Positions 11,749-55,744 of a DNA stretch of 64,000 nt are shown here, in pieces (position 1 is the stretch's first letter; every line of letters starts with the position of its first letter). The stretch spans positions 1-64,000 of the forward strand of contig JAJECE010000112.1 of the NCBI GenBank assembly GCA_022822185.1, read 5' to 3'. Made by a program: the position numbers and the translations under genes. The stretch comes from Rhodothermales bacterium (lineage in GTDB: Bacteria; Bacteroidota; Rhodothermia; Rhodothermales; Bin80). The notes beneath the pieces are model-generated. The model was not told where the DNA came from and searched no databases. It saw only the letters and a list, made by a program, of their open reading frames with translations.

Positions 11749-12213
11749 TTACTCATTTTCCTGCGCAAAGGATTTGTAGTAATCCATGATGACGTTATTC
11801 TCAATGGTTGCCCCCTCACCGTGTCGCTTAATCGTTATGTCCCATGGACTCCCCGGCCGATGTGTTAGACCGGATAAATAAAGCCCGTCGTACTTACCAT
11901 ATACTTCTGTGACCCGGTTAATGATTTTAAGTGGAGTTTCCTCGAATATAGTTCTCGGCCGCTGCACATTTTTCAAAATAGGTGAATACCCGTACCTCTT
12001 ATATTTATGATAGATTTCGGGCACCACCGGTCCATATTTCCATGCCTCAACATCATCACGGAACAGGGGCATTTCGCAAATCCCGAGCGTCCAGCCATGG
12101 CTGATATAGGACAACTTGAGTATCTGCATCGGAGTGAGATACCTGCCTCTTTGGCTTGCAATCCAAAGAATTTGAGAAGCAGCCTTTAGTGCTTCCGGGA
12201 CTTGATTTACCAT
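11749..12213 (-). CDS. orphan Panacea (DUF4065) domain protein
   Basis: 154-residue protein that is almost entirely a Panacea domain: LTPMQILKLSYISHGW followed by 'VEAWKYGPVVPEIYHKYK' and the C-terminal 'GSPWDITI' segment. Panacea domains (SocA-like) are the antitoxin part of many toxin-antitoxin pairs and of phage-associated modules, where they neutralise unrelated toxins. No partner is visible: downstream on its strand the convergent kdgK gene lies 100 bases away, and upstream toward the tRNA gene the longest frame I could read has about 20 codons. It may be an orphan or protect against a toxin encoded elsewhere. A second, longer Panacea protein is at 53432-54025; the two share the core motifs but are not recent duplicates. 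Confidence 0.85.
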   Translation of the reverse strand: MVNQVPEALKAASQILWIASQRGRYLTPMQILKLSYISHGWTLGICEMPLFRDDVEAWKYGPVVPEIYHKYKRYGYSPILKNVQRPRTIFEETPLKIINRVTEVYGKYDGLYLSGLTHRPGSPWDITIKRHGEGATIENNVIMDYYKSFAQENE

Positions 12214-12507
12214 GGTTGTAAATTTTGGGGAAATCGTATCGGATGATGGTTGGTGCTAAAAATTACTGCAGGAGTATCCCCATACCCTGGCGAAGTTTGC
12301 CGTTAACCCGACTCAATTCAAGAAATCCCCGATATTCCATCAAGCAGTGTTGGCGGGAAACGGTTTACGATGCCTCTGACTAAAGGTGACCATGAGAGTG
12401 GAACCCGCCAGAATTCGGCATTCAGTCAACCGAAAAATCGATTCTGATCCATTCAAAATCGCCTGTGGAGACACCTATTTTCCAGTATCCCCTGACGACT
12501 GCCTTTG

Positions 12508-12581
<74 letters not shown>

Positions 12582-52656: not shown

Positions 52657-53259
52657 TCAACAATTGGCATTCATCATCTCAACCCCGTACGCATCTGTAA
52701 GTCTCAAGGGTTTCCCTAACCGGAAGACAACTGGCTGCTGCCTGCCCTGATCTACTGCAATATTGTCCGTGTACAGGTAGGTCTGATCCAGATTGTTCCG
52801 TTTGGGATTCAGCCGTCCATGCAGCCCAGGGATATGGCCTGAAGCATTTGAAAAAATGACTGCGCCTCCCGCCGCAAGCGAATTCAATTCCAATAATAAC
52901 CCTCCATGCGATGGTGTCCACGACCGTATCAAACCTGCCGTATAACCCGGCATTGCAGCGTAAACCGTCATCGGCAAATGGGTTGTATACAAATCAAAGT
53001 CTACTTCACCATTGCTGTCGGTTGTCGCCCGATGCCGGGTTTTATTGGGAAAGAAAACTAAAACATCCGCACCGACCATCGGCTCTCCTGCCGAATGCAC
53101 CGTGGTAACAGCATCTGAAAGCACAAGTTCAAGCCGGGCAGACGGGATCACCAGGACTAAGTTTGTTCTATCAACAATTTTGTACTCAGGCATGCTGCCA
53201 GTAATCTCATGAGTTCCTTTGAGAATGATTGAAACCCCATCTCCCCGCCGTTCCATCAT
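52657..53259 (-). CDS. hypothetical protein with carboxypeptidase-regulatory-like fold
   Basis: 200 residues, no signal peptide. The middle contains 'GEPMVGADVLVFFPNKTRHRATTDSNGEVDFDLYTTHLPMTVYAA', which follows the pattern of a transthyretin-like/carboxypeptidase-regulatory domain ('...G..V....G...A.TD..G...F.L....'), quoted only to show the fold. The C-terminal 80 residues ('AVIFSNASGHIPGLHGRLNPK' then 'YLYTDNIAVDQG') seem conserved in other hypothetical proteins I recall but have no known role. It faces the Panacea gene divergently. Start: two ATGs adjacent at 53259 and 53256. Confidence 0.65.
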   Translation of the reverse strand: MMERRGDGVSIILKGTHEITGSMPEYKIVDRTNLVLVIPSARLELVLSDAVTTVHSAGEPMVGADVLVFFPNKTRHRATTDSNGEVDFDLYTTHLPMTVYAAMPGYTAGLIRSWTPSHGGLLLELNSLAAGGAVIFSNASGHIPGLHGRLNPKRNNLDQTYLYTDNIAVDQGRQQPVVFRLGKPLRLTDAYGVEMMNANC

Positions 53260-53374
53260 ATTTTTGTGAAGATGGGTTTGGCCGAAGTTCTTCGATCAGA
53301 TTACCGCGCAGATCACTCTGGTTGCAGAATTACAAGCCGTAACTATCCTTCCCAGTGAAACCTGGAACAAGTTA

Positions 53375-53386
53375 CGCTGTACAGCG
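53375..53386. promoter_or_regulatory. 12-base perfect palindrome upstream of the Panacea gene
   Basis: CGCTGTACAGCG is its own reverse complement and lies 45 bases before the ATG of the Panacea gene. This is where operators of autoregulated toxin-antitoxin loci usually sit. It also lies 115 bases upstream of the divergent hypothetical gene. Confidence 0.4.
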
Positions 53387-53431
53387 CATAAAGTGTTCCT
53401 TGAATGTGCAATCTAATTGACGCATATCTCC

Positions 53432-54025
53432 ATGAGTCCTGCAAAGTTACCAATTGAAGACTATTTGGTCATTGCTTACCTACTCAAGAAGGCGGGGCTT
53501 GACGGGATAGTCTTAACGCCCCTCCAGATCAACAAGTTGGTTTACATTTGCCATGGATGGGTATTAGCCAAGTTGAACTGTCCATTAATTGATAACAGTT
53601 CTGGCCAAATTCAGGCATGGAAATATGGCCCGGTTGTTCACCGAGTGTACGTCTTGCTCAAAGACTTTGGGTCGCAGGAAGTAACCTACGATTCCTTTTG
53701 CGAGAGACTCGAACGATTTCTAATTGGAGAAGAGTCGGCAGATAATTACATCTCGGGGAAACTTGAGGATCTTGCCTCAAAAGAGCCCAGTGTGTTTAAG
53801 TTAATAGACATGGTCTGGTATGTATATAAGGGGTTATCGGGAGGGCAGTTAATTACAATAACCCACAAGCATGGAACTCCATGGTATCAGAAAGTAAAGA
53901 GAAATGTATTTGGGCAGGTAGTTCACGCAATACCCATCCCCGATCAGATAATTTCTGATTACTACAAAAATGAATTGAGAGAACTACCAGACTTTGCAAA
54001 TGCCCAGCACGGAAGAAAACATTGA
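53432..54025 (+). CDS. Panacea-domain antitoxin (PanA-like)
   Basis: About 197 residues, first two thirds a Panacea (DUF4065) domain: 'DYLVIAYLLKKAG', 'LTPLQINKLVYICHGWVLAKL' and 'IQAWKYGPVVHRVYVLLKDFG'. The C-terminal third has an acidic helix and 'GLSGGQLITITHKHGTPW', the usual end of the domain. Panacea proteins neutralise diverse toxins, including small membrane-active ones, by direct binding. The ORF track opens with TTG at 53417; ATG at 53432 is preferred. Its last 26 bases overlap the next gene, which codes for a small membrane protein, exactly as expected for a coupled antitoxin-toxin pair. A 12-base palindrome lies upstream. Confidence 0.88.
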   Translation: MSPAKLPIEDYLVIAYLLKKAGLDGIVLTPLQINKLVYICHGWVLAKLNCPLIDNSSGQIQAWKYGPVVHRVYVLLKDFGSQEVTYDSFCERLERFLIGEESADNYISGKLEDLASKEPSVFKLIDMVWYVYKGLSGGQLITITHKHGTPWYQKVKRNVFGQVVHAIPIPDQIISDYYKNELRELPDFANAQHGRKH

Positions 54026-54278
54026 AGACGTTCTGAATCAACTTCGTGAGGCATTAAAGAGTCAACCATCTTCAGAAAAAGAATCGGATCACTTGCAGCC
54101 GCCATCGGGGAATTGGGCTGCAAGAATCTATGAAAATGAATATAAGCCCTTCCCTAAATGGATCAAATATCTCATACGTTACGGAATTGTTGTGATCGCT
54201 TTTTTGATTGGACTAAATCATGGTTCAGCCCAGATACAGCAGTTACTGTGTCAGTGGTTTGACAGATTCTGCGGTTAA
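54000..54278 (+). CDS. small transmembrane protein, candidate toxin of the Panacea pair
   Basis: About 92 residues. The N-terminal half is hydrophilic and acidic/Ser-rich ('STEENIEDVLNQLREALKS'), then a basic segment KPFPKWIKYLIRYG leads into one hydrophobic helix (about 62-77, IVVIAFLIGL) and a short Cys/Trp-containing tail. The start overlaps the Panacea gene by 26 bases (ATG at 54000; TTG at 53994 is possible). Single-span small proteins are one of the toxin classes known to pair with Panacea antitoxins, acting by membrane disruption. No known toxin domain is recognisable, so the assignment rests on topology and context. Confidence 0.65.
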   Translation: MPSTEENIEDVLNQLREALKSQPSSEKESDHLQPPSGNWAARIYENEYKPFPKWIKYLIRYGIVVIAFLIGLNHGSAQIQQLLCQWFDRFCG

Positions 54279-54481
54279 GTCCAGTCAACCGCAAGCATCT
54301 CCGTCCAACGACGCACCATCTTGTGTGTCCAACGTGGAGTTATCACGATTGCTCTGGCCATAAATGCAATCTCGGAAATCCCGCTGCGGCAGAGCAGAAA
54401 GTTGTGTCCACGCCACCATACCGTCCAGTTCAGTGATCGGCCGTATTGTTGATTCAGCCAAGAAACACGGAGTAAGATGGG
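54279..54481. other. short intergenic region with in-frame continuation of the ATPase gene
   Basis: The 203 bases between the small membrane protein gene and the convergent ATPase gene have no separate gene. Downstream of the ATPase stop (TAG at 54484-54482 on the minus strand) the same frame stays open for 68 further codons, ending next to the toxin-candidate stop. This could be chance or show that the ATPase once extended further. Confidence 0.4.
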
Positions 54482-55744
54482 CTAGGGACAATACGGCCGC
54501 GAAGTGTCGCTAGACGCGGCCCCCTCCGATGCGCCGCCCCTCGTCGTTGGACAATGACCATGTACGCAGCGGCCGGTCCGGCGGGGGACGGAACAGAGGG
54601 GGTTGCCCCTCCCGAAATTCTCAACGAGCCAGGCCTGCATGGACGGGATCGGGATGACATACATGTTATCGAACTCTTCCAGCACGCCTTTGTGCACCAT
54701 CCGCCGGAACAACTCTTCCGCCTTGGATTCCCCGTACGCATCCGTGAGCGCGTCCGTCAGATACTCTCTGGCAAAACTGTACCGGGGCGGCACATCCCGG
54801 AGACTGTGAGCAATACATCGAAGTACGCTGTCCTGAATGCCCTGCACCCGCGCTTTGTAGAATTTTGTGCGTTCTTTCCGCCCCGTCTCCATCACCACAT
54901 TCAACCCATTCGGGGTCATCCGCCTGCGGTCCGCCCGCACCTGCAGCGCCGCGGCTTGCGCATAGCAGGCAATATGCTGAGGCCAGCCGTGCGTCTCTGC
55001 CATGATCGCATCCACCCAGGGCCTGATGTCTCCCTTGGCCTTCCCCTCCAGCTGGAGCCAGTCTGCGATGACCCTCCGCTCTTCATCCGGCTTTAGAGGC
55101 TCCAAATCCACGCAGCAGCCGGGCTTAAAGCGGGACACGCCCATTTTCTGGAATGCCACCTTCGTCCCACCGAGCCCCGCCACGAGCAGCATCATAGGGC
55201 GCCCCATGTCGCCGTTATGGAGTCTATCCAGAAACACCTTCACCGTCTCGTGACGCGCATCCGAAGATGTCATCCCTCCGCCCAGTGTCTGTGCTTCGTC
55301 CAAGACGAGCAGGAGCGGGGACTTCCCTAGCCTGATGATACTCTGGGGAGTGTGACCGGGGAGTTTGAACTTCGCTCCCGCCCCTCCCTTGATCCATTTA
55401 TCAAATCCCGCCTCTATAGCGATTGTGTCCAAAAGAGCCCGCCAGACTTCCCAACGCTCTAACAACTGGCACATGGCATCCGTGTCCCAGAGCGCCTTCG
55501 TGTTTATCTTCAGCGTCTCCCATCCACGCTTTCTGGCCCGCCGCGCACACTCATAAAGCAGTGCGGTCTTGCCCGCACCCGGCGCGGCCTGAATCAGGAA
55601 CGTCGTCCCCTTCGTACTATCATCCACCGTGAACTGCAAACGCTTTCGAAAGGCACCCAGCACTTTCTCTCTCCCGTGGAAGTACTCGGTTTTTCCCCGG
55701 TCGTCTATATCGTCGGCCCAGTCTGGGGTATAACCGTCATTCAT
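54482..55744 (-). CDS. AAA/STAND-like P-loop ATPase, KxFHGR family (copy 3)
   Basis: 420 residues. KTEYFHGRE box (18-26), Walker A AAPGAGKT (53-60), Walker B LLLVLDEAQ (144-152), sensor-like MLLVAGLGG, 'HGWPQHIACYAQA' lid motif and a winged-helix-like C-terminus near MQAWLVENF. It shares this order with 7169-8278 and with the truncated 181-819 copy. The insert between the RGWETLKINTKALW segment and Walker B is about 25 residues longer than in the 7169 copy. The last 40 residues after LVENF are rich in Arg, Cys, Ser and Pro and do not resemble the sister protein, suggesting a frameshifted tail. It sits beside the Panacea pair in an accessory pocket. Function unknown. Confidence 0.83.
   Translation of the reverse strand: MNDGYTPDWADDIDDRGKTEYFHGREKVLGAFRKRLQFTVDDSTKGTTFLIQAAPGAGKTALLYECARRARKRGWETLKINTKALWDTDAMCQLLERWEVWRALLDTIAIEAGFDKWIKGGAGAKFKLPGHTPQSIIRLGKSPLLLVLDEAQTLGGGMTSSDARHETVKVFLDRLHNGDMGRPMMLLVAGLGGTKVAFQKMGVSRFKPGCCVDLEPLKPDEERRVIADWLQLEGKAKGDIRPWVDAIMAETHGWPQHIACYAQAAALQVRADRRRMTPNGLNVVMETGRKERTKFYKARVQGIQDSVLRCIAHSLRDVPPRYSFAREYLTDALTDAYGESKAEELFRRMVHKGVLEEFDNMYVIPIPSMQAWLVENFGRGNPLCSVPRRTGRCVHGHCPTTRGGASEGAASSDTSRPYCP

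Follow-up and report, generated by a model that had tools for sequence, protein, structure and literature searches.

The locus described here compares most readily with PanAT pairs whose toxins are small membrane proteins, namely D11/T12 of Bartonella apis/choladocola, cluster T3, and the PanAT of a Helicobacter sp. In these systems, likewise, a Panacea antitoxin is encoded in a two-gene operon of adjacent or overlapping genes, and the partner is a small protein with a charged N-terminus before its membrane span or spans; the likeness drawn here is one of anatomy. In PMC8832971, membrane spans are predicted for three validated PanT toxins, of which two have a charged N-terminus, and strong depolarization was demonstrated. 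The pair in question lies in the window, that is, the whole 64-kb stretch of DNA that was analyzed, on contig 77 of a 3.7-Mb genome in 132 contigs (G000). We consider it likely, with good but not high confidence, that this is a PanAT-type pair with an apparently undescribed family of membrane partner, most likely a toxin harming the inner membrane. "Undescribed" here means absent from the libraries searched; the family may already sit among the 88 PanT clusters of PMC8832971 or the NetFlax nodes of PMC10440598. The Panacea network would then gain an apparently new kind of partner in an uncultured, marine-type lineage.

The product of the upstream gene matches the PF13274 profile with 54.7 bits (E value, 2.3e-14) against a curated cutoff of 25.7, which bears out its sequence-only reading as a Panacea; the NCBIfam SocA model NF047745 yields 80.9 bits, under its cutoff of 190. 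The AlphaFold model of the protein is confident (pLDDT, 88.6; pTM, 0.86), and a PDB fold search with this model gave no significant match. In the model, Y65 directly precedes strand 66-69 and H145 ends helix 137-144; equated by position, these residues seem to correspond to Y56 and H120 in the Bartonella choladocola PanA, for which PMC10440598 reports that Y56A or H120E abolishes neutralization of PanT(D11). The downstream gene starts with an ATG inside the Panacea frame, and both the 26-base overlap and the succession of a basic segment and one hydrophobic helix in its 92-residue product proved to be as the sequence-only reading had them. The basic/aromatic stretch is KPFPKWIKYLIR, the hydrophobic span has a mean Kyte-Doolittle value of 1.8, and AlphaFold predicts helices at residues 5-20 and 39-48 and a long, confident helix at 53-86, in a model with an overall pLDDT of only 72. 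A charged N-terminus followed by a predicted membrane span is the anatomy of the PanT membrane toxins (T3/T12/D11). Among the 15 residues on either side of the span of the window copy, 3 before and 0 after are positive, which favors an N-in orientation; the counts are even or reversed in several relatives. The topology suggested by the window copy is thus N-in/C-out, which would place the conserved C-terminal segment described below outside.

The small protein matches nothing in Pfam, NCBIfam, PADLOC, or PHROGs, and the phage, plasmid, and IMG/VR collections contain no homologues, so that the family, earlier called unrecognized, is indeed absent from these libraries. Pfam and NCBIfam likewise provide no assignment to the Hok sequence family, and sequence and fold searches of the PDB returned nothing convincing for either member of the pair. 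A palindrome that had been pointed out upstream of the pair, CGCTGTACAGCG, is present 45 bases before the Panacea gene, but a role for it is not supported: none of the 11 related Panacea genes examined has it upstream, and the window contains 18 perfect 12-bp palindromes. As an operator it was rejected, being neither conserved nor rare by chance. The features of the locus are collected in Table 1.

Table 1. Coordinates of the Panacea/small-protein pair and associated features in the window
Feature	Position	Strand	Basis or remark
Presence/absence cassette with the pair	52659..54484		Comparison with sister genome G003
Frame with carboxypeptidase-regulatory-like domain, within cassette	52657-53259	minus	Apparently the 3'-terminal part of a longer gene
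Palindrome CGCTGTACAGCG, taken to be a chance occurrence	53375..53386		Counts in window; comparison of upstream regions
Panacea (SocA/PanA-type), 197 aa, stand-alone domain, presumed antitoxin	53432..54025	+	PF13274
Gene overlap, 26 bases	54000..54025	+	Panacea and small-protein frames
Small one-span membrane protein, 92 aa, presumed toxin, "C-[QH]-W...C" family	54000..54278	+	Alignments A3, A4; dN/dS; AlphaFold
Variable N-terminal half, residues 1-53, presumed Panacea-binding	54000..54158	+	Counterpart co-exchanged with Panacea at C112/G003:C98
Membrane span, residues 54-72	54159..54215	+	Hydropathy, AlphaFold
C84-Q-W86...C91, presumed outside the inner membrane	54249..54272	+	11-sequence alignment

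The 92-aa protein was searched alone against its own genome, irrespective of Panacea; this gave three more copies, and a profile search added a fifth (C112). Altogether, the family occupies 14 places in seven genomes of two genera within one Rhodothermales family (G000, five copies; G003, three; G012, two; G002, G005, G006, and G009, one each); the named metagenome-assembled genomes (MAGs) among them are Rhodothermaceae bacterium bin80, presumably derived from a sponge metagenome, and Rhodothermales bacterium jk18xAbins.42. At all 13 loci with a readable upstream region, across the seven genomes and two genera, the small gene is immediately preceded on its own strand by a Panacea gene, intact or broken, in most cases with an overlap (in intact homologues, of 4, 8, 23, or more bases); the remaining copy (C4) is located at a contig end and contains an internal TGA. 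This is the conserved two-gene neighborhood expected of PanAT. Homologues occurring mostly without a Panacea neighbor would have spoken against the earlier proposal of a PanAT-type pair with an unrecognized membrane partner; the linkage found, together with the absence of the family from the libraries, supports it.

An alignment of 11 family members has just three invariant columns, C84, W86, and C91 (window numbering), conserved even though identity to the window protein is only 21-41%. The signature comprises the membrane span, an N-[HYF]-[GA]-[ST]-like turn, and C-[QH]-W-x(4-7)-C; at G012:C110, the partner is extended at its C-terminus by a segment that includes a second hydrophobic stretch. 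The accessible sections of PMC8832971 and PMC10440598 contain no mention of such an invariant C-W-C after a single span for the D11/T12, T3, or Helicobacter PanTs. In the less saturated pairs, dN/dS of the small gene is 0.14-0.53 (more distant pairs are saturated), so the gene evolves under purifying selection and encodes a selected protein. No convincing C-W-C member was found outside the Rhodothermales family in a wider sample of the phylum. Two weak phylum-wide matches (E values, 0.004 and 0.008) were set aside, as was a G049 match falling across an unrelated 877-aa frame. Kinship with the two-span or other one-span partners beside phage and plasmid Panaceas was also dismissed (no profile match; probability below 1%). 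Halomonas and Pseudomonas phages encode Panaceas followed by mutually related one-span partners of another type, 44% identical to each other (L089, 734-1126; L091, 1955-2344).

Among the G000 Panaceas, those partnered with the C-W-C family form a single clade (support, 95/97), a clustering not matched by any of 500 shuffles (0/500 as low), and other Panacea clades pair with RelE-like or two-span partners, as labeled by eye. Between helix 70-79 and helix 119-132, the C-W-C-partnered Panaceas have an additional stretch that is missing or shorter in the other Panaceas of the genome (alignment A5). Overall, G000 encodes 19 PF13274 genes, several relatives (G009, G003, G002, G012, and G005) encode 7-12, and other congeners 0-1; the partners fall into at least three types: C-W-C one-span, two-span, and RelE-like (by eye). 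A second Panacea of the window (154 aa; 11749-12213, minus strand), which has no evident partner, lies some 300 bases downstream of the gene for a tRNA-Arg (12507-12581, minus strand).

The most informative comparison is between C112 in G000 and G003:C98 in the sister species, which represent one chromosomal site between thiL-like and dprA-like flanks (named by eye). Per 60-base step, the flanks match at roughly 81-100%, whereas identity drops to about 60-81% in Panacea and as low as 38% in the first half of the small gene and then returns to 93-98% across the span and the C-terminus. Differences at third codon positions follow the same pattern: the dprA-like gene differs at 9% of these positions and Panacea at 48%, and for the partner the figures are 50% over 30 codons of the N-terminal half and 12% over the last 58 codons. 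This contrast shows recombination rather than selection on the protein; Panacea and the N-terminal half of the partner were replaced as one block, and the membrane end was retained. Because the N-terminal half was exchanged together with Panacea, it is probably Panacea-specific, that is, recognized by Panacea, with the membrane end as the constant effector. This interpretation agrees with an independently reached model for B. choladocola, in which Panacea is placed on the N-terminal tail of PanT(D11) and the short helix before the span (PMC10440598). The exchange block represents one event at one site, and none was detected at the other shared sites (C50/G003:C85 and C2/G003:C53). It is offered as natural evidence that Panacea specificity would reside in the N-terminal tail of a presumed membrane toxin.

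The pair is accessory. In the sister genome (L058, G003:C12), 281 unrelated bases replace the entire cassette between flanks that are 92-97% identical; these 281 bases have no match elsewhere among the sequences compared. The gene to which the carboxypeptidase-regulatory-like frame would belong is present in several copies in G000, at 67-84% DNA identity. An AAA/STAND-like ATPase gene (54482-55744, minus strand) adjoins the pair; its family is represented by dozens of members in G000 and G003 and by few in other species, and similar genes are also found beside the pairs at C2, C126, and G003:C53. An interspersed 172-bp repeat, with 39 matches in G000 and 26 in G003, is missing from the eight remaining genomes of the genus; its sites include G000:C126:18570-18744 and G000:C4:25101-25272, the latter just upstream of the C4 partner copy.

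Decay in one direction only was looked for as a sign of toxicity, but the degraded copies of the pair are not one-sided. At three loci, Panacea persists and the partner is broken or missing: at C126, the partner is gone and a 172-bp repeat directly follows the Panacea stop; at G002:C52, the partner has acquired a stop and lost both cysteines; and at G005:C102, at most an N-terminal remnant of the partner is left (a weak match, 36% over 33 residues). Conversely, the partner frame is open and its Panacea broken at three further loci, where Panacea has a 5-bp deletion (C50; this could be an assembly error), three stops (G005:C58), or two stops (G012:C78). These open partners are the main, though equivocal, evidence against a toxin because a strict toxin should rarely outlive its antitoxin. 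Where the local Panacea is broken, protection might come in trans from another member of the clade; G005, for instance, has an intact Panacea at C102 that shares 82% identity with the broken copy at C58. It is also possible that the broken copies reflect errors in the draft assemblies.

The three loci with an open partner frame are what favors the view of the small protein as a harmless membrane anchor, or a regulated membrane subunit, that brings Panacea to the membrane. We regard this as improbable given the strict pairing, the exchange of Panacea along with the N-terminus of its partner, the loci at which the partner was lost but not Panacea, and the existing examples of small membrane PanTs that have been validated. 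Another explanation, to which we assign a limited chance, is a sensor-effector defense pair, in which Panacea would remain attached to the membrane protein and, in response to a phage cue, release or activate it. Panacea has been proposed as a sensor domain (PMC10440598), and islet-like presence/absence and allele exchange fit defense genes, but PADLOC recognizes neither gene, homologues are lacking in the phage, plasmid, and viral collections, and the neighborhood is largely metabolic. Such a pair would differ from a PanAT mainly in its trigger, and the two are not mutually exclusive.

Under the preferred explanation of a PanAT-type toxin-antitoxin pair, Panacea would be synthesized first from the common message and would bind the small protein at its N-terminal half, on the cytoplasmic side, blocking its insertion or assembly. 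Once Panacea is lost or inactivated, perhaps through phage, the single helix would insert into the inner membrane N-in/C-out, with the C-[QH]-W...C segment outside, where the cysteines might pair within or between molecules, and the inserted protein would depolarize the membrane. Toxicity and depolarization are proposed on the grounds of anatomy and of analogy with the validated PanT toxins. The small protein might instead be toxic in another way, for example, through binding of the C-W-C segment to a membrane or envelope enzyme. This segment is conserved more strongly than any other part of the protein, and more than a bare pore helix would seem to require, but validated PanTs of similar anatomy depolarize or permeabilize the membrane (PMC8832971), and we consider this variant unlikely. 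A SocAB-like (type VI) arrangement, with Panacea as a protease adaptor handing the small protein over for degradation, could draw on the weak match to the NCBIfam SocA model; with a score so far below the cutoff and a membrane partner that has no recognized relation to SocB, it is highly improbable.

A bolder version of the PanAT-type explanation, which we hold tentatively and at somewhat less than an even chance, is that the pair represents a new class of Panacea-controlled toxin built from two exchangeable modules, a recognition tail that follows the antitoxin and a constant one-span C-W-C module, in which a disulfide on the outside would gate or stabilize a membrane pore. If this is true, the small protein would be a counterpart of HokB that is governed by a protein antitoxin and whose tail can be exchanged for another while the toxic end stays unaltered. 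Hok toxins belong to type I systems, in which control is exerted by an antisense RNA, not by a protein antitoxin. HokB is inserted N-in/C-out and has a periplasmic cysteine, and its disulfide is needed for depolarization (PMC8309996). Both HokB and the C-W-C protein are small and single-span; no sequence relation between them is claimed. With the type VI system SocAB, the pair shares the antitoxin domain family (Pfam SocA_Panacea); the partners are unrelated, and the Panacea of the window scores below the cutoff of the SocA equivalog model.
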